64,000 nucleotides of DNA from Halobellus salinus (GCF_014646875.1 NZ_BMOC01000004.1:62001-126000), one strand, 5' to 3'; numbered from the stretch's first letter, positions 24,212 through 36,624 are shown. The notes: generated from the letters alone by a model not told the origin. A program made the numbers and translations.

Positions 24212-24642
24212 CAGTCATCGTGGACACGGGCGTCCTCTACGCCGAGCACGACACGGACGCGACGAGACACGAGGCTGCTACAACAGCACTGGATTCGGTC
24301 TACGATGGCGAGTTCGGACAGCCGTACATCAGCGACTTCATTTTCGACGAAACGATCACACTAGCCCGTACGCGGACGGGATCGTTCGACATAGCCAGGC
24401 GGCTGAGTGACCGGCTAATAGGGCACGAAGGGTTTCCGCAGGTATTCGAGCTACTACGGGTCTCTGCGGGCCCGTTTTCGGACGCAGTAGACGTGTTCGA
24501 GCGGTACAACGATCAGGAACTGAGCTTCACCGATGCGACGACCGTCGCGCTGGCCGAGCGACACGGCATCGACCGCGTGTTGAGTTTCGACGACGACTTC
24601 GACGGCATCGTTCGCCGACTCGATCCCGCAACCGTCGCGTAG
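24208..24642 (+). CDS. VapC-like PIN-domain ribonuclease toxin
   Basis: This 144-residue PIN domain shows the acidic active-site set: Asp6 (VIVDTGVLYA), Glu48 (FIFDETI), Asp109 (LSFTDATTVALAE) and Asp near 128 (VLSFDDDFDGI). VapC toxins cleave tRNA or rRNA when freed from VapB. Translation is coupled to the antitoxin by ATGA overlap. The length is usual for the family. The pair lies between the S-layer genes and aglJ and may stabilise this region. Confidence 0.83.
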   Translation: MTVIVDTGVLYAEHDTDATRHEAATTALDSVYDGEFGQPYISDFIFDETITLARTRTGSFDIARRLSDRLIGHEGFPQVFELLRVSAGPFSDAVDVFERYNDQELSFTDATTVALAERHGIDRVLSFDDDFDGIVRRLDPATVA

Positions 24643-24683
24643 CGTCGTGGTCACACTCACTCAAGCGTCGCCCGGCCGGAAAA

Positions 24684-24776
24684 CTACCGACGGGTGGGAA
24701 TGGAAGGGGCCGCGGGGGCTTCCAAGCCCGTCTCCCCACTGTTCTTACGTATTTCACTCTTAACGAGTACCAGCGT
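24684..24776 (+). ncRNA. Structured dispersed element, copy 1 (short form)
   Basis: The leading stem-loop CTACC-GACG-GGTGG (24684-24697) is followed by GAATGGAAGGGGC and a second stem GGAAG (24702-24706)/CTTCC (24719-24723). The next ~50 bases, including TATTTCACTCTTAAC and AGTACC, align with copy 4. It lies 42 bases after vapC and about 100 bases before the aglJ start. Confidence 0.6.
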
Positions 24777-24819
24777 CGTTCCGGAACCACTTTGATGCGC
24801 CCCCGACGCACTCCAAGCA

Positions 24820-25743
24820 ATGCCTCCCTTCGACGACGTCTGCGTCCTCGTGCCCACCTACAACGAGGCCGAGACCATCGGCGGTGTCGTCGCCGAGTTC
24901 CGCGACGCGGGCTTCGACGACGTCCTCGTCGTCGACGGCGGCTCCGAGGACGACACCCCAGCTGTCGCCGAGGCCGAGGGCGCACGCGTCGTCTACCAGT
25001 CGGGGTCCGGCAAGGGCCAAGCCGTCCGCGAGGCCGTTCGCGAGCACGTCGACCGCGACTACATACTGATGCTCGACGGCGACGCGACCTACAGCGTCGA
25101 CGACGCCGACAATATGCTCGACCCCCTCATCGCGGGCGACGCCGAACACGTCATCGGCAACCGCTTTGCGGACCTCCGCGAGGGCGCGATGACGGGGTTC
25201 AACCAGTTCGGCAACCGGCTCATCAACAAGGGGTTCGCGCTCGTCCACGGCGAGACCTTCGCCGACATCCTCTCGGGGTACCGCGCGTTCACCCGCGAGT
25301 CGTTCCTGAAGATGACGCTCTCGGCCGACGGGTTCGGCATCGAGACCGAGATGGCCGTCGAGTGCGCGAAGCGGAACATCCAGACGACGGTCGTCCCGAT
25401 CACGTACTACCCGCGGCCCTCCGGCTCGGACACGAACCTCCGGCCGGTCCGAGATGGAGGAATCATCTTCCTCGAGCTCTACCGCCGCGCGAAGACCAAC
25501 AACCCCCTCTTTTATTTCGGCAGCCTGGGCGTGCTCTCGACGGTCTCCGGGCTCGTGATCGCGGCGTACGTCCTCGTGGAGTGGATCACCCGAAATATCT
25601 CCCACGAGGTGATGGCGGTCGTCTCCGGGTTCGGGATCATCGTCGGCGTCCAACTGCTGATGTTCGGGGTGCTCGCGGATCTGGTGTTGACGCTGCATCG
25701 CGACACGCTGCAGAAGATCGACGAGGAGGCCGGGTCGGAGTAA
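24820..25743 (+). CDS. aglJ: AglJ-type dolichol-phosphate glycosyltransferase
   Basis: This 307-residue GT2 enzyme shows VLVPTYNEAETIGGVV at the start, the metal-binding LMLDGDATYS (Asp86, Asp88), and a C-terminal pair of membrane helices (about 230-255 and 265-290). The arrangement and sequence match haloarchaeal AglJ, which adds the first hexose to dolichol phosphate in S-layer N-glycan assembly on the cytoplasmic side. Its place beside two S-layer genes supports that role. The gene has clean GC-rich codon use. The start ATG 24820 gives the expected N-terminus. Confidence 0.82.
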   Translation: MPPFDDVCVLVPTYNEAETIGGVVAEFRDAGFDDVLVVDGGSEDDTPAVAEAEGARVVYQSGSGKGQAVREAVREHVDRDYILMLDGDATYSVDDADNMLDPLIAGDAEHVIGNRFADLREGAMTGFNQFGNRLINKGFALVHGETFADILSGYRAFTRESFLKMTLSADGFGIETEMAVECAKRNIQTTVVPITYYPRPSGSDTNLRPVRDGGIIFLELYRRAKTNNPLFYFGSLGVLSTVSGLVIAAYVLVEWITRNISHEVMAVVSGFGIIVGVQLLMFGVLADLVLTLHRDTLQKIDEEAGSE

Positions 25744-25746
25744 GAA

Positions 25747-25875
25747 ATGCCACGAGATCAGGGATCAGTGACCGACCAAGAGCTCGAAGCGCTTCGCGAC
25801 GGGATGGCGAAACAAGGGGAAGCACTCCGTGAAGCGCTCGCTGAAGATCTCGGTGGCGATCCCGACGACTACTGA
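25747..25875 (+). CDS. Small acidic protein, 42 residues, unknown function
   Basis: A 42-codon frame starts four bases after the aglJ stop. It reads MPRDQGSVTDQELEALRDGM followed by an Ala/Glu-rich helix and an acidic end (DPDDY). The composition is typical of haloarchaeal proteins and the distance suggests co-transcription with aglJ. I do not recognise a family. A chance frame in GC-rich DNA remains possible. Confidence 0.4.
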   Translation: MPRDQGSVTDQELEALRDGMAKQGEALREALAEDLGGDPDDY

Positions 25876-25987
25876 CAGCGTCCGGTCACCGACGGCGAGT
25901 GAACCGCTGTGGTGAGTTTTCGTACAGTATTTTCAAACCTTTCACGCCTAACACTCTTTACAGAACGTACCGTATCCCAATCCATCG

Positions 25988-26359
25988 ATGTCTATCGACC
26001 GAGACACCTTCGAGAATGCGAGCGAGGACGAACTCGCAGACCTTTCAGCTCCGGATCGGGTACTCGGGTTCCTCGCGGCCCACGCGGATCACGCGTTCAA
26101 AGCTCGTGAGATTGCGTCCCGGATCGATGTCGACGAAGGGGCAGTCAGCACTGCCCTCTCACGATTGAAGGATCGTGACCTGGTCGAACACAAGGCTACG
26201 TACTGGGCGGTGACTGACGACGCCGAGCGCCTCGAAGGGTACAGCGGCTACGAGCGAGCGACTGAACTGTTCAACGACCGTCTCGGTACCGAAGACGAGG
26301 AGGCGTGGCGCGAGCACGCCCCCCAGAGACTACACCCGAGCGTCGAGGAAGAACAGTGA
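25988..26359 (+). CDS. Winged-helix antitoxin/regulator of a PemK-like toxin
   Basis: This 123-residue protein has a winged helix at residues 20-85 (VLGFLAAHADHAFKAREIAS, then GAVSTALSRLKDRDLVEHK), a MarR-like arrangement, and an acidic C-terminal tail. Its stop overlaps the GTG start of a MazF/PemK-like gene (GTGA at 26356-26359). In haloarchaea such winged-helix proteins serve as antitoxins and autorepressors of the coupled toxin. The gene appears intact although the toxin does not. Confidence 0.72.
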   Translation: MSIDRDTFENASEDELADLSAPDRVLGFLAAHADHAFKAREIASRIDVDEGAVSTALSRLKDRDLVEHKATYWAVTDDAERLEGYSGYERATELFNDRLGTEDEEAWREHAPQRLHPSVEEEQ

Positions 26360-26706
26360 CCGACGACGCAGCTCCGATCTTCGAACGGGGCGATGTCGTC
26401 TACGGTGACGACCCGTTCAAAGGTGACGAGGACGCTCGACCCTGGCTCGTTCTCTCGAACCACGAGGGACGACCGTTCCACGGCGAACAGTACATCCCAG
26501 TCACGCTCACGACGAGATCCTGGATGGATGGCCTCATCGATATCCCCGAGGAGAGTTGACTTCGCGGCGGGACCCCGGACGAGAGTCGGATCGTTCCGTG
26601 GGGCGTCCAGTCGATCGACCGCGAGGATATTGACTTCTGGCAGGGGCGTCTCGCCGAGACCCTCGTCGACGAGGCGGTTGCAGCACTCGTCGAGGAACTC
26701 GAATAA
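26356..26706 (+). pseudogene. PemK/MazF-like toxin interrupted by an in-frame TGA
   Basis: From GTG 26356 the frame encodes a PemK-like start (FERGDVVYGDDPFKG, RPWLVLSNHEGRPFHGEQY, IPVTLTTRSW) and stops at TGA 26557-26559 after 67 residues. The same frame continues without shift as LRGGTPDESRIVPWGVQS and onward to TAA 26704-26706, giving the expected C-terminal half. The stop lies where a Trp (TGG) would fit, as in PEESW-L. One G-to-A change would account for it. The antitoxin upstream is intact. Whether a truncated product or readthrough occurs is unknown. Confidence 0.75.
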
Positions 26707-26765
26707 CGGTACGGTCAGTGAGGCGGTCGTAGTGTTGTACAAAACATAGCAGTCCAGCAGTAGTA

Positions 26766-26802
26766 CCGCGAGGCGAGCGAACGCGAGTCTCGCGGCATTT
26801 TT
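26766..26802 (+). terminator. Terminator-like hairpin, repeated inversely at 50483
   Basis: CCGCGAGGC...TCTCGCGG (26766-26795) is followed by a T6 run. Its 30-base sequence and T-run recur in reverse complement at 50465-50512. Further perfect hairpins (GTGAGGCG-CAAG-CGCCTCAC and GGCCGCGC-TTC-GCGCGGCC) and T/A runs fill the space to dnaJ, so the region probably ends transcription from both sides. Confidence 0.55.
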
Positions 26803-26926
26803 TGATCCACCGTGAGGCGCAAGCGCCTCACGAGCCTCGCTTCGCTCCGCTCAGCGAGACAGATTTTTTGCAGGGGTTCGAGGCCGCGCTTCGCGCGGCC
26901 GAGGGCCCCCGGTAAAAAAGTGGGTT

Positions 26927-28096
26927 TTAGAAGCTGTTCTTGATCTTCTCGAAGAACCCTTCGGAAACGTCCACGTCCTCGCCGCCGGCCTCCGCGAATG
27001 CCTCAAGCGCCTCCTTCTGTTCCTGGTTGAGGCTGTCGGGCGTCACCACCTGCACCTGGACGTAGAGGTCACCGTGGCCCCGCCCACGGAGGTGTGGCAT
27101 CCCCTCCCCGCGGATCCGGAACTCCTCGCCGCTCTGGGTCCCCGCAGGCACGTCGAGTTCGGTCGACCCCGTTACGGTCGGCACCTCCACAGAAGCCCCG
27201 AAGACCGCCTTCGGGAACGACATCGGGTGCCGGTGGTAGAGGTCGTCGCCGTCGCGCTCGAAGTCGGGGTGGTCCCGGACCGCGATGTCGATCAGGAGGT
27301 CGCCCTTCGGGCCGCCGTTCTCACCGGGCGCGCCCTCGCGTTCCATCCGGAGGGTCTGGCCGTCGCGGATCCCCGCGGGGATGTCGACCGGCAGCGTGGC
27401 CTCCTCGCGGGTGACGCCATCGCCGCCGCAGACAGAACACGACTCGCTGTAGGTCTCGCCCGCGCCGTTGCACCGCGGACACGTCTGGGTCTGCTGGACC
27501 CGCCCCAAGCGAGTATCACGGACGGTCGTGGTCTGGCCCTGGCCGTTACACTGCGGGCAGGTCCGCACGTCGGCGTCGGCCGGGTGGCCGCGGCCGCCGC
27601 ACTCCGGGCACTCCTCGGGCCGGGTGAGCGTGAACTGTTTCTCGACGCCCTCGTGGACCTCCTCGAGGTCGAGCGTGACCTGCGTCCGGATGTCGCTGCC
27701 CTGCCGGGGGCGGTTCCGGCCGCCGCCGCGACCCTGGCCGCCGCCGAAGAACTGGTTGAAGATGTCCTCGAAGGGGCTGCCCTGGCCGCCGCCGCCCATC
27801 CCGCCGAAGGGGTTGCCTTGGCCGCGGCCGCCGCCCCCGCCGCCGCCGTTGTCGAACCCGCCGCGTTTTTCGGCCTGCTCGAAGCGGTCGTGGCCCACCT
27901 GGTCGTACACCCGGCGTTTCTCGTCGTCGGTGAGGACTTCCTTGGCCTTCTTGATCCGCTTGAACCGCTCTTCGGCGTCCTCGGCGTCGGAAACGTCGGG
28001 GTGATACTTCGCGGCCTTCTTGCGGTACGCTTGCTCGATCTCCTCGTCGGTGGCGTCCCGGGAGACACCGAGCACGTCGTAGAAGTCCTCGCTCAT
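26927..28096 (-). CDS. dnaJ: Chaperone DnaJ (Hsp40)
   Basis: From ATG 28096 the protein has 389 residues. The J domain carries the HPD motif (His32-Pro33-Asp34), followed by a Gly/Phe-rich linker (about 80-130), four zinc-binding CxxCxGxG repeats (starting Cys163, Cys180, Cys206 and Cys220) and the two beta-barrel substrate domains. It stimulates DnaK ATPase and binds unfolded proteins. No dnaK or grpE lies within the window. The longer frame back to 28171 adds basic residues before the family start and was not used. Confidence 0.95.
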   Translation of the reverse strand: MSEDFYDVLGVSRDATDEEIEQAYRKKAAKYHPDVSDAEDAEERFKRIKKAKEVLTDDEKRRVYDQVGHDRFEQAEKRGGFDNGGGGGGGRGQGNPFGGMGGGGQGSPFEDIFNQFFGGGQGRGGGRNRPRQGSDIRTQVTLDLEEVHEGVEKQFTLTRPEECPECGGRGHPADADVRTCPQCNGQGQTTTVRDTRLGRVQQTQTCPRCNGAGETYSESCSVCGGDGVTREEATLPVDIPAGIRDGQTLRMEREGAPGENGGPKGDLLIDIAVRDHPDFERDGDDLYHRHPMSFPKAVFGASVEVPTVTGSTELDVPAGTQSGEEFRIRGEGMPHLRGRGHGDLYVQVQVVTPDSLNQEQKEALEAFAEAGGEDVDVSEGFFEKIKNSF

Positions 28097-28318
28097 TCGT
28101 TGTCTGACCAGTAATCGGTTGAACCACTTCAACCGAACGGGTCTCGTGTTCGAGCCACGGGCCCGATTCACGCCGAGTGTGTCGGCCGGACCGGGCCGGT
28201 TCGGGGACCGAGTGCCGTCGTGTCCCCCCGAATCCCGACTTCACCACCCGAACGCCGCGCTCAGAACCCGTCGTCGGGGACCGTGAGGGCTTTGTCGCGG
28301 TAGCCGTAATGGAAGTCA

Positions 28319-28669
28319 GTGAGTTCAGACGACGACCGCGGCTACGTCCACCGCCCCGGCGACGCCGACAGCCGACCCTCGACCGGCGACGACGCCACGG
28401 GAGCCGCGGCCGCGACAGGTGAAGATCCCACGACGAGTGAAGCCACCGCGACCGCCCCTGGGTTCGGCTCCCGCGGGTGGGTGCTCGTGGGCGTGCTCGT
28501 GGGGTGTACCCTCGTGGTACCCGGAATCATCTACCTCCGGCCCGGGATCCTCGCGGCGGTCGGCATCCCGTACATCGCCTCCCTGCTCGTGCTCCCGCTT
28601 CTGCCGGCGGCCGCGCTGGGGCTGACCGCGGTCTGGGCGATGACCGCGGCCACGCGCGGCGAGGAGTGA
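28319..28669 (+). CDS. Small two-helix membrane protein, unknown function
   Basis: This 116-residue protein starts with GTG 28319. It has a hydrophilic acidic N-terminus (about 50 residues) and two hydrophobic helices (WVLVGVLVGCTLVVPGIIYL and a second near 78-108). No motif points to a function. The composition is normal for the genome. The 222-base gap before it, divergent from dnaJ, holds both promoters but no gene. Confidence 0.6.
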   Translation: MSSDDDRGYVHRPGDADSRPSTGDDATGAAAATGEDPTTSEATATAPGFGSRGWVLVGVLVGCTLVVPGIIYLRPGILAAVGIPYIASLLVLPLLPAAALGLTAVWAMTAATRGEE

Positions 28670-28773
28670 ACTCGACTGCGGGTTGCTCGTCCGAGAACGC
28701 GTCGCGGACGGCCCGACCGGTGACCGACGGCGGACGGACACGGGCCACCCAGGTCGACGTGCTCCCGGAAAGG

Positions 28774-28807
28774 CTTATTACGGTGTGTGATTGTGACACA
28801 TTCACAC
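28774..28807 (+). promoter_or_regulatory. TATA box with overlapping 23-bp palindromic operator
   Basis: A TATA-like CTTATTA (28774-28780) is followed at 28785-28807 by GTGTGATTGTGACACATTCA plus CAC. This is an inverted repeat over 23 bases with only one mismatched pair, ending two bases before the ATG at 28810. A dimeric repressor bound here would cover the transcription start. Confidence 0.6.
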
Positions 28808-28809
28808 GG

Positions 28810-29160
28810 ATGTTCGAAACGTTCTCCACGAGCTACTACCTGGGACGCCTCTACGTCGAGCCGTCGGACCGGGACGTGCCCGCGATCCGACAGGCCGATC
28901 ACGAGCAGGTGAACGAGCGGCTCTACGGCGACGAGGGGGTGTTCCGGGTCGACGCACCGCTCGTGATGAAACTCGACACCGGTCACATCCCCGTGCTTGG
29001 CGACGAGGACGTGGCGTCGGGCACGCTCGCGGTCCCCGACTCGGTCGACGACCGCGACCTCCCGGGCGAGCGCGACGTCCTCCTCGCGAAGTCCGAACGC
29101 GCCGCCGAGCTCCTGAAGTACTCCGGCTACCGGTTCGGCGACGACGGGGCGGTGGCGTAA
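28810..29160 (+). CDS. DUF5802-like haloarchaeal protein
   Basis: From ATG 28810 the protein has 116 residues and begins MFETFSTSYYLGRLYVEP, with VMKLDTGHIPVLGDEDV in the middle and VLLAKSERAAELLKYSGYRF near the end. I recognise this as a conserved haloarchaeal family (DUF5802, from memory) with no known function. It is soluble and acidic. The palindrome overlapping its promoter suggests it is regulated as a single gene. Confidence 0.7.
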   Translation: MFETFSTSYYLGRLYVEPSDRDVPAIRQADHEQVNERLYGDEGVFRVDAPLVMKLDTGHIPVLGDEDVASGTLAVPDSVDDRDLPGERDVLLAKSERAAELLKYSGYRFGDDGAVA

Positions 29161-29270
29161 GCGACGTCGTACGCGTCGGCCGACAACCCCGTCCGGATCC
29201 ATCCGGGCGAGACCACCAACCGGCCGTCGTCGCTCCGGTCGTGTCTCGTTACACGAATGCTGGTCAGAAT

Positions 29271-29490
29271 CCACCCTCGGGTGGGACTGGAAGGGGCCGC
29301 GGTCTCGACGAAGTTGACGAGAGCAAGCTCTCGTCAGCCAACCAGAACGCAAGCGTTCTGGTGAAGGCGGCCGACGTAAGCACCGCAGGCCGTAGGCCGA
29401 GGAGCGCAACGAGGCCCCCGAGTCGAGACCGCGGGGGCTTCCGAGGTCGTCATTATCCTGTTCCCGACGATCTCACACCTAGCTACGCAG
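29271..29490 (+). ncRNA. Structured dispersed element, copy 2 (long form)
   Basis: The leading stem CCACC-CTCG-GGTGG (29271-29284) is followed by stem GGAAG/CTTCC (29289-29293 with 29438-29442) and a perfect 12-bp stem CGCGGTCTCGAC (29298-29309)/GTCGAGACCGCG (29422-29433). Inside are two perfect 9-bp hairpins with CAAG loops at 29315-29336 and 29341-29362. The tail (GTTCCCGACGATCTCACACC) aligns with copies 1 and 4. It lies about 100 bases before the radical SAM start and accounts for most of the 384-base intergenic gap. Confidence 0.7.
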
Positions 29491-29544
29491 TCCCGTCCCG
29501 AGTAGCACGACTTTTGAGTCTCGGGCCGGTAGAAGGCACAGAAA

Positions 29545-30540
29545 ATGATCTCGAAGGGCTGTGAGCAGTGCGCCAAGGGCGGCAAAATGGTGCTCTTCGT
29601 CTACGGGTACTGCGACCAGCGCGACTGTTTCTACTGCCCGCTCGGCGAGAACCGAAAGAACGTCACCGACGTCTACGCCAACGAGCGCCTCGTCGAGTCC
29701 GACGGCGACGTCATCGAGGAGGCCCATCGGATGGACGCCTTGGGAACCTCAATCACCGGCGGCGAGCCCCAGGAGGCGATGGCGAAGACGACGCGCTATC
29801 TCGAACTCCTGAAAGACGAGTTCGGCGCCGAGCACCACACCCACCTCTACACCGGGATCACTGGAGGGAGAGAGAACATGCGCCGTCTCTCGGAGGCCGG
29901 CCTCGACGAGATCCGGTTTCACCCGCCGTACGAACTGTGGGGTGAGCTTCACGGCACCGAGTGGGAAGAGATCCTCTACATCGCCCGCGAGGAGGGGCTC
30001 ACGCCCGCCTTCGAGATCCCCGGCATCCGCGCCGAAGAGGAGTTTCTCGAGTTTCTCGACGAGGGCGCCGCCGAGTTCTGTAACGTCAACGAGTTCGAGA
30101 TGAGCGACGGCAACTACCGCCGGATGCAAGAGCAGGGGTACGAACTCCAGGAGGGCCACATGTCCGCGGTCGAGGGGTCGAAATCCGAGATCCTCGAATC
30201 GATGGGCGACCACGAGCGGGTCTACTTCTGCACCTCGGTGTTCAAAGACGCCGCCCAGCACCGCAACCGGCTCAAGCGGATGGCGCGTACCATCCGCCGT
30301 CCCTTCGACGAGGTGACCGACGACGGCACGCTCGTCTACGGCAAAACGTGGGTCTCCCCCGGGACACTTGACGCTCTCGGCGTCCCCGAGGACTTCTACA
30401 CGGTCAAGCCAGACCACGTCGAGGTCGCGTGGTGGCTCCTCGAAGAGATGGTCGACGAGGGCGACGTGCCCGAGGGCGAACTCGTCGAGCAGTACCCCAC
30501 CGCCGACGGCACCGTTGTCGAGCGCACGCCGTTGGCCTGA
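29545..30540 (+). CDS. Radical SAM protein (COG2108-like) with a C-x4-C-x2-C cluster motif
   Basis: This 331-residue protein has Cys23-x4-Cys28-x2-Cys31 (GYCDQRDCFYCPLGE) where canonical radical SAM enzymes have C-x3-C-x2-C, a GGEP motif near residue 70 (SITGGEPQEA) and HLYTGITGGRENMRRLSEAG afterwards. An extra CxxC (Cys6, Cys9) precedes the cluster. It resembles the uncharacterised archaeal family related to pyruvate formate-lyase activating enzyme. The substrate is unknown. A TATA-like CTTTTGAG about 30 bases before ATG 29545 suggests a leaderless transcript. Confidence 0.78.
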   Translation: MISKGCEQCAKGGKMVLFVYGYCDQRDCFYCPLGENRKNVTDVYANERLVESDGDVIEEAHRMDALGTSITGGEPQEAMAKTTRYLELLKDEFGAEHHTHLYTGITGGRENMRRLSEAGLDEIRFHPPYELWGELHGTEWEEILYIAREEGLTPAFEIPGIRAEEEFLEFLDEGAAEFCNVNEFEMSDGNYRRMQEQGYELQEGHMSAVEGSKSEILESMGDHERVYFCTSVFKDAAQHRNRLKRMARTIRRPFDEVTDDGTLVYGKTWVSPGTLDALGVPEDFYTVKPDHVEVAWWLLEEMVDEGDVPEGELVEQYPTADGTVVERTPLA

Positions 30541-30550
30541 GCGGGACGGG

Positions 30551-30628
30551 GTCCGCCTGAGTCGCACGCGCCGACCTGAATCGCGCGTGTCGGCCTGAGT
30601 CGGACGCGGTCGGCCTGAGTGAGACGCG
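30551..30628. repeat. Four 19-20 bp tandem repeats
   Basis: Copies begin at about 30551, 30570, 30589 and 30609, with consensus GTCGGCCTGAGTCGGACGCG. They lie between two convergent stop codons. They may be a remnant of slippage or part of a bidirectional termination region. Confidence 0.6.
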
Positions 30629-30636
30629 GTCTGTCA

Positions 30637-31341
30637 CTACCGCGACCGGCGGGGCCGCCGGGATCCACCGGAGCGCGCCCGCGTCAACGCCGCGTAGAGG
30701 CTCGGCACCACCGCGGCCGCGATGCCGACCAGCAGCCACGGCCCGAGCGGACCGCCGCGGGCGACCCCCACGCCGACGATCCCGATCCCGACGACCCCAC
30801 CCCCCGCGGCGACCAGCCGCTTCGTCCGCGCGTCAACGTCGACGCCGCGTTCAGTTCCGTAGAGCGCCGCCCCGAGCCCCGCGAGCACGCTCGCGGCGGC
30901 GCCGACGAGTGGCCGCCCGGTCGCGAGTCCGGCGACGAGCAGGGCCAGTCCAGCCGCTCCCCCGGCGAGAACGGTTATTCGGGGCGCCACGGGGTTGAGG
31001 TCCGCGCCGAACCGCGTTGCGTAGGCGGCGGCGGGCGCACCCAGGAGTGCGGCGACGAGCACCGCCGACAGGACGCCGCCGGGCGTGGGGTCGCCGACCA
31101 CCACCCCGACCCCGCCGGCGACCGCGACGACCGCGCCGGCCGCGAGCAGCCACCGCGGCGGGATCGTCGCCGCGGGGTCGTTGTCGCGGACGATCCCGAA
31201 CGCGACGAACGGGTACGAGACCACGGCGCCGACGACCACGGTGGCGTAGAGCCCCCACGCGAGGACGGCGCCGGACACCAGGGTGGAGACACCGAGGAAC
31301 ACGCCGGTGAGGACGGCGAACTCGGGGACACGCCGGCTCAT
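30637..31341 (-). CDS. Multi-pass membrane protein, unknown function
   Basis: From ATG 31341 the protein has 234 residues with about seven or eight hydrophobic helices rich in Ala, Gly and Val, and an Arg-rich C-terminus (SGGSRRPRRSR). No conserved charged residues within the helices suggest a transporter or enzyme. The longer frame runs into other genes and was not used. It diverges from the TRAM gene, with 111 bases between start codons. Confidence 0.65.
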   Translation of the reverse strand: MSRRVPEFAVLTGVFLGVSTLVSGAVLAWGLYATVVVGAVVSYPFVAFGIVRDNDPAATIPPRWLLAAGAVVAVAGGVGVVVGDPTPGGVLSAVLVAALLGAPAAAYATRFGADLNPVAPRITVLAGGAAGLALLVAGLATGRPLVGAAASVLAGLGAALYGTERGVDVDARTKRLVAAGGGVVGIGIVGVGVARGGPLGPWLLVGIAAAVVPSLYAALTRARSGGSRRPRRSR

Positions 31342-31452
31342 ACCGGCTTCTCGGGTCGACGCGGGCGAAAGCGTTGCGGTCCCGCGTGCGCCCCGGTCGA
31401 GCCCACCGCAAAACCCACAAGCGTTTAGACACGCCGCGGAGTACTCACCGCT

Positions 31453-31932
31453 ATGTCCGACTGTCCGCTTGCCGACGACTGCCCCAGGTATTCGGAGCGA
31501 ATCAACGGGATGGGGTGTCAGTACTACGGCGACCGCGGGGGTGCCGAGTGGTGTAACTCCTACGACCAGCCGATCCGGGACCTCAAGGCCCAGCCGGTCA
31601 AGCCCGGCGAGGAGATCCTCGTCGAGGTCGACGACATCCACGAGAGCGGGGCGGGGGTCGGTCGGACCGACGACGGGTTCATCGTGCTCATCGACGGCCT
31701 GCTGCCGACGACACGGGCGGTCGTCCGGATCGACCGGGTGAAGTCGAACCACGCGACCGCGAAGAAGGTGGTCGAACGCCTCCCGATGGAGGACGACGAG
31801 GAGGGTGACGACGAGAGCGATGGCTCCACGGCAGAGGACGACGGGAACGGACGCGGACGCGATCGCGGCGGACGCGGCGGCCGGGACCGGTCCACGGCGC
31901 TCGGCAGCCGCGACAACTTCTGGGGCGGGTAG
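31453..31932 (+). CDS. TRAM-domain RNA-binding protein with N-terminal cysteine cluster
   Basis: This 159-residue protein starts MSDCPLADDCPRYSERINGM, with five Cys in the first 34 residues (probable zinc ribbon). A TRAM beta-barrel spans about residues 48-108 (PGEEILVEVDDIHESGAGVG, then FIVLIDGLLPTTRAVV). The C-terminus is an acidic then RG-rich tail (GRGRDRGGRGGRD). TRAM domains bind RNA; small archaeal TRAM proteins have been proposed as RNA chaperones. The tail would add nonspecific RNA contacts. Confidence 0.75.
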   Translation: MSDCPLADDCPRYSERINGMGCQYYGDRGGAEWCNSYDQPIRDLKAQPVKPGEEILVEVDDIHESGAGVGRTDDGFIVLIDGLLPTTRAVVRIDRVKSNHATAKKVVERLPMEDDEEGDDESDGSTAEDDGNGRGRDRGGRGGRDRSTALGSRDNFWGG

Positions 31933-32010
31933 CCGTCGGAACCGGAAGCGGGGGAGAACGGACAGTCGGTCTGTGGCACCTTTTTTGCCGGCGCGTGCGT
32001 ACGACGCGGT

Positions 32011-32592
32011 ATGACAAACGCCGAACGGGGCAACCACGAGGCGTCAACACCTGAGCGCACCGACTCCGGCGACCCGTCGGCGACCGACGGCGGACCGACC
32101 GAGGACGCCTCCGACGGCGGACCGACCGAGGACGCCTCCGACCCCGACGACGCACTCTCCGCGGCGGGGTTCGACGCCGAGGCGAGCGTGTTGACTCGGC
32201 GGCAGGCAGAGGTGTTGGTCCTCAGAGAGCGGGGGATCCGCCAATCCGAGATTGCGTCGACGCTGGGGACCTCCCGCGCGAACGTCTCGAGCGTCGAGTC
32301 CAGCGCCCGCCGGAACGTCGAAAAAGCCAGAGAGACCGTGGCGTTCGCTGAGGCGCTGACCGCGCCGGTCCGGATCCCGGTCGCGGAGGGCACGGACCTC
32401 TATGACGTCCCGAAGGCGGTGTACGACGCCTGCGACGACGCGGGCGTGAAGGTGAACCGCACCGCTCCGGAGCTCATGAAGGCGGTGTCGGACGCCGCCG
32501 GCGACGCCATCCAGGGCCGGGAGGTCCGAGAGTCGCTGCTCGTGGGTGTGACCACCAACGGTCGGGTGCAGGTGCGGCGCTCCACTGAGTGA
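32011..32592 (+). CDS. Tfx-family transcriptional regulator
   Basis: This 193-residue protein has a disordered acidic N-terminus containing a perfect 24-base tandem repeat (GGPTEDAS twice). The Tfx helix-turn-helix lies at about 60-95 (LTRRQAEVLVLRERGIRQSE, then IASTLGTSRANVSSVE), with a C-terminal ligand or dimer domain after it (VPKAVYDACDDAGVKVNRT). Tfx in methanogens activates molybdenum formylmethanofuran dehydrogenase genes; targets in haloarchaea are unknown. Confidence 0.8.
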   Translation: MTNAERGNHEASTPERTDSGDPSATDGGPTEDASDGGPTEDASDPDDALSAAGFDAEASVLTRRQAEVLVLRERGIRQSEIASTLGTSRANVSSVESSARRNVEKARETVAFAEALTAPVRIPVAEGTDLYDVPKAVYDACDDAGVKVNRTAPELMKAVSDAAGDAIQGREVRESLLVGVTTNGRVQVRRSTE

Positions 32593-32631
32593 CAGGTGTC
32601 ACGGCCGCCCGGACGTCCGGGCCCGATCCGG

Positions 32632-33927
32632 TTAGAACTCCCCGCGATCCTCCAGCCGCCGGACCACCCGTTTGACGTCCTGGGCGCGGTTTTTCGGCAC
32701 CACCAGCACCCGATCGTCCCGCGCCACCACCGCGAGGTCGTCGACGCCGACCAGTGAGACGTGGGCGTCGTCGGCGGCGACGACGTTGTCCGCGGCGTCG
32801 AGCGCTCGCACCGTCGCACCCTCGGTCACGGCGTTGCCGTCCGTGTCGGTGTCGAGCACCCGGTCTAAGGCGTCCCACGACCCGATGTCGTCCCACGGGA
32901 ACGCCGCGGGCACGACGGCGACGTTGGCGGCGGACTCCAAGACCGCGTAGTCGACGCTCACGGGCTCGGCGGACTCGAACGCCGCCCGTACCGCCGCGTC
33001 GTCGCCCGTCCGGAGCGCGTCGAGGAGGGGCGCAAGCGGCGGCGTGTCGGCCGCGGCCAGGAACACCTCGGGGCGCCACGCGAACAACCCGGCGTTCCAG
33101 TAGTGGCCCGCCTCGACGTACGACTCGGCCGTTTCGGTGGTGGGCTTCTCGTGGAACGACGCAACGGGGTACCACTCCACATCGGCCGCGACGGGGCCGA
33201 TCGACGGGTCGCCCCCAACGGCGTCCGCGCCGTCCGCGACGGGGTCGGTCGCCGGACCGCCCGCAGCGGCGTCCGCCACCGGCTCGGCAGCTTCGATGTA
33301 CCCATAGCCGGTCTCCGGCCGCGTGGGTTCCACGCCGAACGTGACCAGTCGGTCGGTCGCCGCGGCGACTCCGACGCTCCGCCGGACCGCGGGCGCGAAC
33401 CCCTCATCGCCCCCGCCGTCGCCGATCAGGTGATCGCTCGGGAGCACGAGAGCGACGGCGTCGTCGTACCGCTTTGCGACCTGGTGGGTCGCGTACAGCA
33501 GCGCCGGCCCGGTGTCGCGGCCCGCGGGTTCGACGAGCACTTCGGCGTCGGGGACGCGTTCGGCCACGCCCTCGGCGTACGACTCGCGGGTCAGTACGAT
33601 CACCGCCTCGGCGACCGTCCGGGCGCGGGCGACGGTGCGCTCGAGGAACGACGCCTCGCCGAGAAGCGACAGGAACTGCTTCGGTCTGTCGGATCGGCTG
33701 GCTGGGTAGAGCCGCGACCCCGTACCGCCCGCAAGCACCACGGCGACGACGGTGGGATCGGAACTCAACTCGGAGTCGGAACTCAACTCGGAGTCGGAAC
33801 TCAACCCGGAGTCGGAACTCAACTCGGAGTCGGAACTCAACTCGGAGTCGGAACTCAACCCGGAGTCGGAACTCAACTCGGAGTCGGAACTCAACCCGGA
33901 GTCGGGGCCGGAGCCACCCCCGGCCAT
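32632..33927 (-). CDS. Mannose-1-phosphate guanylyltransferase with repetitive N-terminus
   Basis: From ATG 33927 the protein has 431 residues. The first ~55 are a low-complexity (E/G)LSSDS repeat encoded by an 18-bp minisatellite. The catalytic domain begins VVAVVLAGGTGSRLYPASRS with KQFLSLLG following, and includes VLPSDHLIGDG and a family-typical FHEKPTTETAESYVEAGHYW. It makes GDP-mannose for glycans. The start overlaps the upstream stop (TGATG), which supports it. No Met or GTG was sought inside the repeat, so an internal start near the catalytic domain cannot be excluded. Confidence 0.85.
   Translation of the reverse strand: MAGGGSGPDSGLSSDSELSSDSGLSSDSELSSDSELSSDSGLSSDSELSSDSELSSDPTVVAVVLAGGTGSRLYPASRSDRPKQFLSLLGEASFLERTVARARTVAEAVIVLTRESYAEGVAERVPDAEVLVEPAGRDTGPALLYATHQVAKRYDDAVALVLPSDHLIGDGGGDEGFAPAVRRSVGVAAATDRLVTFGVEPTRPETGYGYIEAAEPVADAAAGGPATDPVADGADAVGGDPSIGPVAADVEWYPVASFHEKPTTETAESYVEAGHYWNAGLFAWRPEVFLAAADTPPLAPLLDALRTGDDAAVRAAFESAEPVSVDYAVLESAANVAVVPAAFPWDDIGSWDALDRVLDTDTDGNAVTEGATVRALDAADNVVAADDAHVSLVGVDDLAVVARDDRVLVVPKNRAQDVKRVVRRLEDRGEF
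33754..33905. repeat. 18-bp minisatellite inside the guanylyltransferase gene
   Basis: About eight copies of GGAGTCGGAACTCAACTC or the variant ending CAACCC run in tandem. The unit is a multiple of three, so copy-number changes keep the reading frame. On the coding strand it specifies alternating ELSSDS and GLSSDS. Confidence 0.9.
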
Positions 33928-34229
33928 CACCACGTCTCCACGATCCCGTCGCGCACGTCCTCGGCGCACCCCTCGCAGTCGGGGTGGCCCGCGTCGAAAC
34001 ACGCCGGACGGCCGTCGTCGTCGATCGCGACCGCCCGCCGATCGGCGTGGCGGCGGCAGACCACCCGCGCCCGTCCCTCGTCGTCGCGGGGAAGCGACGG
34101 CACGCGGTCGTCCCCGGCGTCGGTGTCGCTGCCGTCGCGGCCCTCGTTGTACGCCTCACGGGCGCGGGCGTACTGCCGGCCCGCCGCCCGGAACTTCCGC
34201 CTGAGCAGGCCTTCGAGACGGTCGTCCAT
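33927..34229 (-). CDS. Small cysteine-containing haloarchaeal protein, unknown function
   Basis: From ATG 34229 the protein has 100 residues: a basic helical start (MDDRLEGLLRRKFRAAGRQY), a middle SLPRDDEGRARVVCRRHADR and a C-terminal cysteine group (ACFDAGHPDCEGCAEDVRDG). Four Cys and nearby His could bind zinc. Its stop overlaps the guanylyltransferase start by one base (TGATG), so the two are translationally coupled. A TATA-like CTATACC lies about 25 bases before the start on the minus strand. Confidence 0.65.
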   Translation of the reverse strand: MDDRLEGLLRRKFRAAGRQYARAREAYNEGRDGSDTDAGDDRVPSLPRDDEGRARVVCRRHADRRAVAIDDDGRPACFDAGHPDCEGCAEDVRDGIVETW

Positions 34230-34312
34230 CGGCCCGATATGCGGTGGCGATCGGTATAGGTCCGTTGGTGAGGGCGACAGGTGGCGTTCAGAGAAGCCAT
34301 TGAACCGGGGAT

Positions 34313-34350
34313 CACCCCGAAAGCCCCTTTCAGTCTCACCCGTATCGGCT
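34313..34350 (-). ncRNA. Structured dispersed element, copy 5 (minimal, minus strand)
   Basis: On the minus strand the sequence reads GGGTGAGACTGAAAGGGGCT followed by TTCGGGGTG, containing GAAAG-GGG-CTTTC as a compact hairpin. It matches the core of copy 3 and lies head to head with it, about 90 bases before the start of the minus-strand gene at 34229. Confidence 0.45.
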
Positions 34351-34360
34351 GGTCGGTAAG

Positions 34361-34500
34361 CCACCGTCGGGTGGGACTGAAAGGGGCGGCTCGCTGGAGG
34401 AAGGCGGGCGAGGTAAGCACGCGACCGGAGGGAGCGCGCGCAACGAGCCCCCCGACTCCAGCGAGCCGGGGCTTTCGAGCTATCTGCAGTCTCACCTCCC
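34361..34500 (+). ncRNA. Structured dispersed element, copy 3 (long form)
   Basis: The leading stem CCACC-GTCG-GGTGG (34361-34374) is followed by stem GAAAG (34379-34383)/CTTTC (34472-34476), compensating the GGAAG/CTTCC of the other copies. A perfect 12-bp stem GGCTCGCTGGAG (34388-34399)/CTCCAGCGAGCC (34456-34467) replaces a different 12-bp stem in copy 2. The inner GTAAGCAC and GCGCAACGAG segments are shared with copy 2. It lies in the divergent gap upstream of the RPA gene and its TATA box. Confidence 0.68.
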
Positions 34501-34583
34501 TCGTCTGCACAGCACCGCGACGCGGCGCCGTCGGATCGGGGTCGACCCCGACCCGCGGATTCACTTCCACCCCGCTTGCGATA

Positions 34584-34591
34584 GTTTATTA
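34584..34591 (+). promoter_or_regulatory. TATA box of the RPA operon
   Basis: GTTTATTA lies about 62-69 bases before the ATG at 34653, predicting a leader of about 40 bases. The leader contains a short out-of-frame ATG at 34624. Confidence 0.45.
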
Positions 34592-34652
34592 CTCATCGCG
34601 AACCAATCTGCGTGTGCCTCCCAATGAAAACCAAGGCGGAGGCGAGCCCACC

Positions 34653-35582
34653 ATGACAGACCTGCGAACCCACGCAGCGGAGATAACCGAACAGTTCTCG
34701 GACCACATCGACGTGACGGACGACGAGGTCGAAGAGCGACTTCGCACCCTCGTCGAGGAGTACCGCGTGCCCGTCGAGGAGGCGCGGCGCTCGGTCACGA
34801 ACAGCTACCTCGACGAGGCCGACCTCGAACGCGAGGAGCTCGGCCGCGGCGGCAACGACGAGGTCCGCCTCGCCGACATCGACCAGGACGAACAGTGGAT
34901 CGACGCCACCGCGAAAGTCGTCGAACTCTGGGAGCCCCGCAGCGACTCCATCGCACAGGTGGGGCTGCTCGGCGACGAGTCCGGGCGCACCAAGTTCGTC
35001 GCGTTCGAGACCTCTGAGCTCCCCGAACTCGAGGAGGGCGCGGTCTACCGGCTCGGCAACCTGGTCACCGACGAGTACCAGGGCGACTTCTCGGTGAAGC
35101 TCAACCGCACGACCACCATCGAAGCGGTCGACGAGGAGATCGAGGTCGGCGACGACGCGGTCACCGTTGAGGGCGCGCTGGTCGACATCCAGTCGGGTAG
35201 CGGCCTGATCAAACGGTGCCCCGAGGAGGGCTGCACCCGCGTGCTCCAGAACGGCCGGTGTTCCGAACACGGCGACGTCGACGGCGAGTTCGACCTCCGG
35301 ATCAAGGGGGTGCTCGACGACGGCACGACCGTCCACGAGACCATCTTCGGCCGGGAGACCACCGAGGACCTCACCGGGATCGGGTTGGAGACCGCCCAGC
35401 AGATGGCGAAAGACGCCCTCGACACCACGGTCGTCGTCGAGGAGATGCGCGAGGACCTCCTCGGGACGTACTACCGGATTTCGGGCCCCGAACTCGGTCG
35501 GTACGTCCTCGCCGACGACGTCGAACGGCTCACCGAACCGGCGGATCCCGAAGCGGTGCTGATCAAAGCGAGGTCGATCTGA
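34653..35582 (+). CDS. rpa3: Single-stranded DNA-binding replication protein A (Rpa3-like)
   Basis: From ATG 34653 the protein has 309 residues. An N-terminal helical region (about 1-60) precedes an OB-fold (about 75-160, QWIDATAKVVELWEPRSDSI then QVGLLGDESGRTKFVAF). A zinc-finger segment at about 189-208 (CPEEGCTRVLQNGRCSEHG, three Cys and one His) lies inside a second OB-like domain. The length and one-OB-plus-zinc layout fit the haloarchaeal RPA3 class, which operates with its associated protein encoded next. It protects single-stranded DNA in replication and repair. The stop lies one base before the next ATG. Confidence 0.88.
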   Translation: MTDLRTHAAEITEQFSDHIDVTDDEVEERLRTLVEEYRVPVEEARRSVTNSYLDEADLEREELGRGGNDEVRLADIDQDEQWIDATAKVVELWEPRSDSIAQVGLLGDESGRTKFVAFETSELPELEEGAVYRLGNLVTDEYQGDFSVKLNRTTTIEAVDEEIEVGDDAVTVEGALVDIQSGSGLIKRCPEEGCTRVLQNGRCSEHGDVDGEFDLRIKGVLDDGTTVHETIFGRETTEDLTGIGLETAQQMAKDALDTTVVVEEMREDLLGTYYRISGPELGRYVLADDVERLTEPADPEAVLIKARSI

Positions 35583-35583
35583 G

Positions 35584-36219
35584 ATGAGTTCAAACGAGAT
35601 CCCGACCCGAGAGGTCGCACGGCGTGTGTTCGCAGACGAGTTCAACGACGCGACGTTCAGCTTCAAGGAGTCCGACGACGACCGCGCGCCCGTCTACGCG
35701 CTGCTTCCCACCGGGGAGAAAGTCAACCGCGTGTTCTTCATCGGGACCCTGACCGAGAAAGAGGACGTCGGCGAGGACAACGAGTACTGGCGCGGCCGGA
35801 TCGTCGACCCCACGGGCACGTTCTTCGTGTACGCCGGCCAGTACCAGCCCGAAGCGACGAGCACGCTCCGGGATCTGGAGCCGCCGGCGTACGTCGCAGT
35901 GGTGGGCAAGCCCCGCACGTACGAGACCGACGACGGCACGGTCAACGTCTCGGTCCGTCCGGAGTCGATCCAGGTCGTCGACGCCACCACCCGCGACCGA
36001 TGGGTGGTCGAGGCCGCCGAGCGCACCATCGACCGGGTCGGCGCCTTCGAGGACGAGGGCAACGAGTACGGCCGGATGGCCCGCGAGGAGTACGACATCC
36101 CGGTCGACCGGTACCTCGAGTCGACGGTGTCGGCGTTAGAGAGCGTCGAGGAGTCCGACGGCGACGAACTCGGCGTCGGCGGGTCGGCGCCGAGCGCGGA
36201 TCTCCAGCCCGAGCCCTGA
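35584..36219 (+). CDS. rpap3: RPA-associated protein (COG3390)
   Basis: This 211-residue protein starts TREVARRVFADEFNDATFSF and contains an OB-like segment (VFFIGTLTEKEDVGEDNEYW, then IVDPTGTFFVYAGQYQPEAT), followed by RPESIQVVDATTRDRWVVEA and an acidic tail. It follows the RPA gene directly, the standard archaeal pairing in which this protein binds RPA and may modulate its DNA binding. The start is ATG 35584. Confidence 0.88.
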   Translation: MSSNEIPTREVARRVFADEFNDATFSFKESDDDRAPVYALLPTGEKVNRVFFIGTLTEKEDVGEDNEYWRGRIVDPTGTFFVYAGQYQPEATSTLRDLEPPAYVAVVGKPRTYETDDGTVNVSVRPESIQVVDATTRDRWVVEAAERTIDRVGAFEDEGNEYGRMAREEYDIPVDRYLESTVSALESVEESDGDELGVGGSAPSADLQPEP

Positions 36220-36311
36220 GGCGCCTGCCGGTCCCGGGTTGATGGTGAGTTCGATCTTTTTTGAGTCATCGCCGGTCTGATGTCGGTTTTCGCCGTATCC
36301 GTCGGGTGCGT

Positions 36312-36461
36312 ATGTTGCAGACCCTCCGCCCGGCGGGCACACGCCTCCGACAGCCGGCCCCGCTGACGTTCAGAAGCATCGCGGTGACGACGCTCGTGAT
36401 ACTCGCACTCGTCGCCGCGGTCGCGCTCGCCGTCCAGACTGGCGTGGTCGTGTTTAGTTAA
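36312..36461 (+). CDS. Single-helix small membrane protein, 49 residues
   Basis: From ATG 36312 the frame encodes MLQTLRPAGTRLRQPAPLTF followed by one hydrophobic helix (VTTLVILALVAAVALAVQTG). A positive-inside N-terminus and one helix fit a tail or stress microprotein. A longer in-frame start exists at 36261. No family is recognised. The following 20 bases lead directly into element copy 4. Confidence 0.4.
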   Translation: MLQTLRPAGTRLRQPAPLTFRSIAVTTLVILALVAAVALAVQTGVVVFS

Positions 36462-36480
36462 GCAACGACCGACCAGAGAA

Positions 36481-36576
36481 CCACCGACGGGTGGGACTGG
36501 AAGGGGCCGCGGGCTTCCAAGCTCGTCTCTCTCCCGTTCTCACCGATTTCACTCCTAACTAAACAGTACCACTGGC
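36481..36576 (+). ncRNA. Structured dispersed element, copy 4 (short form)
   Basis: The leading stem CCACC-GACG-GGTGG (36481-36494) and stem GGAAG (36499-36503)/CTTCC (36514-36518) are followed by a tail that aligns with copy 1 through GATTTCACTCCTAACT and CAGTACC. It lies about 105 bases before the start of the RHH gene at 36625. Confidence 0.6.
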
Positions 36577-36624
36577 GTCTGACGAACTACTAAGTGCGCA
36601 CGTCGACGATACGTACGCGATACG

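Follow-up and report, generated by a model that had tools for sequence, protein, structure and literature searches.

What is the short structured sequence that recurs ahead of gene starts in Halobellus salinus, and why should its stems covary? A first-pass annotation of the window (the whole stretch of DNA analyzed here, 64,000 nucleotides) had described five dispersed copies of a folded element, each in sense orientation upstream of a start codon. Taken as a whole, the evidence makes it very probable that these are IS6-type MITEs bearing a module whose sense-strand fold is maintained. The repeat itself is real: the core motif GGTGGGACTGRAAGGGGC is present with at most one mismatch at all five positions in the 64-kb window, where chance would give 0.12 (none of 100 shuffles reached six hits), and with up to two mismatches it is found 34 times over the 3.07-Mb genome, against twice for a reversed control. 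No match to the core sequence was found in the relevant open literature.

The count of five holds for core motifs, but the elements number only four, since copies 3 and 5, formerly taken for two head-to-head elements, are two mirrored arms of a single palindromic element. The limits first given were also too narrow and have been extended. A type A element carries one module, a type B element two modules, mirrored; sizes range from roughly 120 to 310 bp, with no transposase gene inside. The features, in window coordinates, are as follows.

24641-24648, no strand: left target site duplication of copy 1, AGCGTCGT, identical to 24772-24779
24649-24771, plus strand: MITE copy 1, a 123-bp type A element with a collapsed hairpin, its ends within a perfect duplication
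24702-24723, plus strand: collapsed P3 hairpin of copy 1, by sequence GGAAGGGGCCGCGGGGGCTTCC
24772-24779, no strand: right target site duplication of copy 1, AGCGTCGT, identical to 24641-24648
29237-29494, plus strand: MITE copy 2, a 258-bp type A element whose full-length hairpin has further stem-loops inserted
29289-29442, plus strand: P3 hairpin of copy 2, GGAAG...CTTCC, 12 of 12 inner-arm pairs
34280-34516, no strand: mirrored MITE copy 3/5 of type B, about 237 bp long, in the gap between divergent genes that precedes the RPA gene
34319-34331, minus strand: collapsed P3 of the mirrored arm, GAAAGGGGCTTTC (the earlier copy 5); core match at 34323-34340, minus strand
34379-34476, plus strand: P3 hairpin in the plus arm of copy 3/5, matched by covariance model R1 at E 4e-17
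36312-36461, plus strand: small ORF, compared with congener G008, its final codons and stop supplied by the end of MITE 4
36438-36445, no strand: left target site duplication of copy 4, ACTGGCGT, identical to 36571-36578
36446-36570, plus strand: MITE copy 4, a 125-bp type A element with a collapsed hairpin, its ends flanked by a perfect duplication
36499-36518, plus strand: collapsed P3 hairpin of copy 4, by sequence GGAAGGGGCCGCGGGCTTCC
36571-36578, no strand: right target site duplication of copy 4, ACTGGCGT, identical to the left one

Copies 3 and 5 are treated as one element of about 34280-34516 because, in L020 and L021, mirrored relatives from the same genome, perfect 8-bp target duplications (GCCCGTGT and TTCGGACG, respectively) lie beyond both arms and thus enclose them; a further relative, L033, matches at 7 of 8 positions. 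The string GGTCCGTTGGTG, an initial left limit for this element, was given up, since it also stands in relatives that lack the element.

The ends identify the family. Read outwards, the copies are bounded by inverted repeats, GGnnnTGTT(T/C)AG(T/A)TA, whose GG tip is typical of IS6. Directly outside these stand 8-bp direct repeats, with perfect cases in other genera as well. In the window, the duplications are perfect at copy 4 (ACTGGCGT, around ends GGTCGTGTTTAGTTAAG and GGTACTGTTTAGTTAGG) and at copy 1 (AGCGTCGT, around the diverged ends GGTCACACTCACTCAAG and GGTACTCGTTAAGAG). The ends of the other two elements have diverged too: copy 2 has GGTCGTGTCTCGTTAC with an eroded partner, GGGACTGCGTAGCTAG, and flanking 8-mers that match at 4 of 8 positions, and copy 3/5 has GGTGGCGTTCAGAGAAGC and GGTGCTGTGCAGACGAGG without an intact duplication. 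Judging by these eroded ends and the lack of intact duplications, copies 2 and 3/5 are older elements. Among all fetched copies, 22 elements have good ends, and in 10 of these the flanking 8-mers agree at 7 or 8 of 8 positions; with shuffled partners, the mean was 0.44 and the maximum 4 over 2000 shuffles. A stricter search of a larger set overlapping the first, in which GGnnnTGT was needed at both ends, gave 8 cases with at least 7 of 8 matches, whereas 20 shuffles produced one in all; two of the 8 are a single element seen on both strands, and two loci come from newly fetched genomes, G008 and G063 being among the sources.

IS6 elements are described in PMC6807381 and PMC7986276 as having GGnnnTG tips and 8-bp duplications, with archaeal clades among them. 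In the H. salinus genome, three IS6 transposases score above the family cut-off, so that transposase-free elements and a matching transposase occur together. The IS6 element L054/L350, whose transposase matches NF033587 (E 1.7e-51), has an end, GGTCGTGTTTAGTTAAG, identical over 17 nt to the left end of MITE 4, and the end of a second one, L349 (GGTAGTGTTCAGATAAGCTG), matches the left end of the mirrored subfamily. The outer ends therefore only appear to covary, since two IS6 types are resident in the genome.

For copy 4, a near-exact empty site exists in G008, where a single similar copy of the target, CTCGGCGT, is found: at the gene behind copy 4, G008 reads ...TCCCTCGGCGTCTGACGAA, and H. salinus reads ACTGGCGT, the MITE and then ACTGGCGTCTGACGAAC. 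The 49-aa product of the small ORF that runs into this element ends in ...AVQTGVVVFS* here and in ...AIVSSLGV* in G008. At copy 1 (window 24640-24648), the duplication starts within the TAG stop codon of an upstream PIN-domain-like gene, and the insertion thus lies right at the gene end. From the ends, the duplications, the resident parents and the one empty site, we infer, with near certainty, that the elements are IS6-type MITEs, copies 2 and 3/5 being placed in the family by homology. The refuting condition set in the first-pass annotation, that all copies would map to the ends of an annotated insertion sequence, had an unexpected outcome: the ends, of IS6 type, are the copies' own, and the copies are whole non-autonomous elements. 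The element type is thus already known, but its hairpin is without an Rfam match.

How widespread is the module? The first-pass annotation had proposed searching haloarchaeal genomes with a covariance model, and R1 (E up to 1e-5) matched 156 of the 194 Halobacteria genomes sampled (57 of 65 genera), often with 20 or more matches per genome and with at least 117 copies in one. An exact 20-mer recurs in at least 119 stretches of genome contigs; among the matches listed, all titles were haloarchaeal except one Herbaspirillum (L072), which was taken as chance. Many matches lie in haloarchaeal plasmids. IMG/VR contigs and phage records gave none, so that, as far as those collections go, the module is no common viral element. 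Against Rfam 15, at both thresholds, the hairpin went unmatched, the window giving just two tRNAs and the five element loci matching solely far below the gathering score.

The module is not limited to proven IS6 MITEs, since for many elements of other genera no IS6 ends could be recognized in the span searched; in some elements the left flank is quite different. At L096, L106, L132, L133, L139 and L143, two to four short direct repeats at about 30-bp spacing (for example, GGTGGCCGGCACC), which differ between genomes, replace the IS6 end before the module. At L075 and L143, the module is preceded by an AT-rich stretch and after it by GCCGGCGGTGGCG... and GGCTGGGGAGGCGTGTGG, a left context that possibly represents a second mobile element type with the same hairpin. 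The string GGCTGGGGAGG alone precedes the module in L090, L152, L173 and L177 as well. The IS6-MITE account leaves unexplained both the modules without recognizable IS6 ends and the inverted inner hairpins described below.

Within the module, a 20-nt lead (CGGGYGGGACTGRAAGGGGC) is followed by the hairpin P3, of 90-100 nt, and a closing GGGGCTTYC. In P3, which is found inside most full-length copies, the arms are hypervariable yet paired, and the letters of the internal loops are invariant (G34 A35, A39 A40, A43, A75, C85 A86, C88 G89 A90). The length of the insert is bimodal, either 5-11 or at least 77 nt, most commonly 84-98. In copy 1, copy 4 and the minus-strand arm of copy 3/5 the insert is short, and these look like collapsed derivatives of the full hairpin. 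The first stem, CCACC/GGTGG, had been listed as a common feature and was dropped as a conserved part, since its full set of five pairs is complete in only 14 of 35 copies in this genome and 13 of 281 elsewhere. The second stem fared better, the exchange of GGAAG/CTTCC for GAAAG/CTTTC being compensated both in this genome and across the class, and the long copies do have inner stems that are perfect yet different in sequence. The R1 model matched the inner part of copy 2 at 29345-29441 (E 6.6e-10), and the plus-arm P3 of copy 3/5 folds as RNA at -65.8 kcal/mol (z -3.95).

The covariation anticipated from the few window copies survives very strongly in a larger alignment. In 52 full-length copies from many genera, aligned by sequence only with MAFFT and given a 30-pair structure derived from that alignment, 93.9% of cells are paired, double changes occur in 25 of the 30 pairs, and 313 cells are compensated, against 95.5 after shuffling. 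The covariation score is 0.537, compared with 0.160 for column shuffles, which leave the relatedness of the copies unmodelled, and at most 0.10 with register slides. In pair 38-87, no cell is broken (C-G 32, U-G 15, U-A 5). A second set of 62 matches from later-fetched loci, mostly new sequences, gave 0.639 against 0.169 shuffled, in an alignment that leans to the structure because it was fitted to the model. Neither pair excess nor mutual information indicated an extra helix between lead and tail, and no conserved promoter was seen upstream of the module. A kink-turn reading of the G-A steps in P3 was dropped, the bulge length being unsuitable.

Some hairpins are more elaborate. Long P3 hairpins with additional inserted stem-loops occur at L008, L014, L017, L071 and L104 (for example, GTTCGA-hairpin-CGTGATGACGAGA-hairpin-TCGAAC), and the overall fold is kept. 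At L010, L084, L135 and L160, the inner hairpin is inverted between its own arms, which suggests that the segment between inverted arms can flip.

On which strand is the fold kept? A palindrome maintained as double-stranded DNA should give equal numbers of G-U and A-C mismatches. In the 12-bp arm of the first set, with the pairing register fitted, 46 G-U stand against 9 A-C mismatches; counted per element, G-U is the sole mismatch type in 30 and A-C in 5 (p 2e-5). A later set of 106 elements gave 21 against 6 (per element, 20 against 5, p 0.004), and in both sets the copies are related, so that the counts are not independent. As a control, the mirrored 20-mer palindrome that type B elements carry, a small sample, gave 13 of each. 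The sense strand thus seems to be the folded form, and the P3 fold is likely kept on one strand, whether as RNA or as single-stranded DNA. The asymmetry alone does not tell these two apart, and the case for P3 acting as RNA rather than DNA is only modestly the stronger.

The main competitor is that P3 is kept as single-stranded DNA, the strand folding during replication or transposition and being recognized as DNA. The asymmetry suits a folded DNA strand equally well, the module resides in mobile elements, and haloarchaeal IS605 and PATE elements use terminal palindromes (PMC3119063). IS6 transposition, on the other hand, acts on double-stranded ends, and type B modules lie on opposite strands, presumably unlike known single-strand transposons; the idea is rather unlikely. 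Could the hairpin instead be neutral, with template switching or inversion copying one arm onto the other and so preserving complementarity? Such copying would suit the occasional inversion of inner hairpins between their arms, and arms that are hypervariable yet often perfectly paired. It would not, however, predict the excess of G-U over A-C (13:13 in the control), the invariant internal-loop letters or the fact that short inner pairs covary (columns 42-82 and 38-87, for example), and we consider it improbable.

A cis-regulatory element of the downstream genes (a leader, riboswitch or insulator) was the natural thought for structures that lie, roughly as first reported, some 90-180 nt before gene starts. 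The earlier judgment that they are probably not 5' leaders is borne out by the congeners, in which the orthologous genes lack the elements, which are therefore not conserved regulators. The core is absent at the loci orthologous to copies 2, 3/5 and 4 in other congeners (15-16 loci each), including the divergent gap of copy 3/5 in 15 of them; apart from copy 4, the congener flanks are too diverged for an exact empty site, though the elements are absent there. The exception is copy 1, at aglJ, which is common only to G008 and degraded there. In G008, the radical SAM gene also has one core some 780 bp upstream, on the opposite strand. The flanking genes vary. Promoter-like sequences beside the genes are conserved even where a relative has no element, so that the insertions lie outside them; in the window, the elements occupy intergenic positions, often immediately before conserved promoters or right behind stop codons. 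Elements are nearly all intergenic, as purifying selection would be expected to leave them. Sense orientation is no rule either: type A elements in tandem gene pairs number 19 sense and 17 antisense in other genomes and 12 and 6 in this one (p = 0.24). (A first own-genome count of 17:5, made without element typing and with a less well-trained gene caller, fell to 12:6 plus 3:1 on recounting after typing and retraining.) Together with the target duplications, the empty site largely refutes a cis-regulatory role, which is now highly improbable.

Equally far-fetched, despite 22 TnpB matches in the genome and a palindromic anatomy, is the relic of IS200/IS605 ends or TnpB guide RNA once proposed, since the ends are of IS6 type, the core lies near only 1 of the 10 tnpB loci examined among the 22, some 670 bp off and neither adjacent to nor overlapping a tnpB 3' end, and inverted ends with 8-bp target duplications are foreign to IS605 (PMC3119063) and tell against the PATE/IS605 type.

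How, then, might an IS6-type MITE with a maintained fold operate? The transposase of the full IS6 copies in the genome would recognize the MITE ends, GGnnnTGTT(T/C)AG..., and insert the element, leaving the 8-bp target duplication; the ends and duplications are observed, and movement would account for them. Elements would persist mainly between genes, where insertion is presumably tolerated. The compensated arms and the excess of G-U over A-C suggest that the folded sense strand is kept, most likely as RNA in transcripts crossing the element, single-stranded DNA being the less likely form. A host protein might then bind the invariant internal loops and process or insulate read-through transcripts, thereby aiding persistence of the element; this role is a guess, and a doubtful one. 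It is possible that the inner hairpin is a small RNA. As a tentative proposal, somewhat short of an even chance, P3 may be an undescribed class-wide structured RNA of Halobacteria, carried on IS6-type MITEs to tens or more than a hundred copies in a genome, that binds a host protein via its invariant loops and shapes transcript ends around the sites of insertion. A strict RNA function does not sit easily with the inverted inner hairpins of a few copies.

Neisseria NEMIS/Correia and enterobacterial ERIC elements are bacterial MITEs with folded transcripts. Halobacteria, to our knowledge, lack RNase III, which cuts NEMIS. Coxiella has MITE-derived small RNAs (PMC5896051). All of these resemble the present elements in being short, intergenic, mobile and transcribable as hairpins; they differ in being unrelated in sequence, and the present elements are known from DNA sequence alone. 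Closer kin are the two reported IS6 MITEs, of 227 and 336 bp; the ISFinder entries MITEHarch3 and MITEBth2 are cited in PMC6807381 and PMC7986276. Like the present elements, these are transposase-free and of similar size, with GGnnnTGTT ends and 8-bp duplications (for MITEHarch3, a likeness by description, not by sequence), but the portions of those papers at hand describe no class-wide structured module for them. The PATEs and small mobile repeats (SMRs) of Haloquadratum are likewise high-copy, transposase-free haloarchaeal repeats, but PATEs are IS605-like, with near-terminal palindromes and without inverted ends or duplications, and SMRs make no duplication (PMC3119063), whereas the present elements have both inverted ends and duplications.

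What does this mean for the haloarchaea? One of their commonest intergenic repeats would gain a name, limits and a mobilizer. Dispersed covarying stems upstream of genes should be checked for target duplications before they are called regulators. A fold that covaries strongly, and is apparently constrained on one strand, is found in an element that presumably needs only its ends to move, which raises the question of whether a functional RNA is carried by a selfish element. If the hairpin is transcribed and bound, every insertion would put a small RNA structure beside a host promoter.
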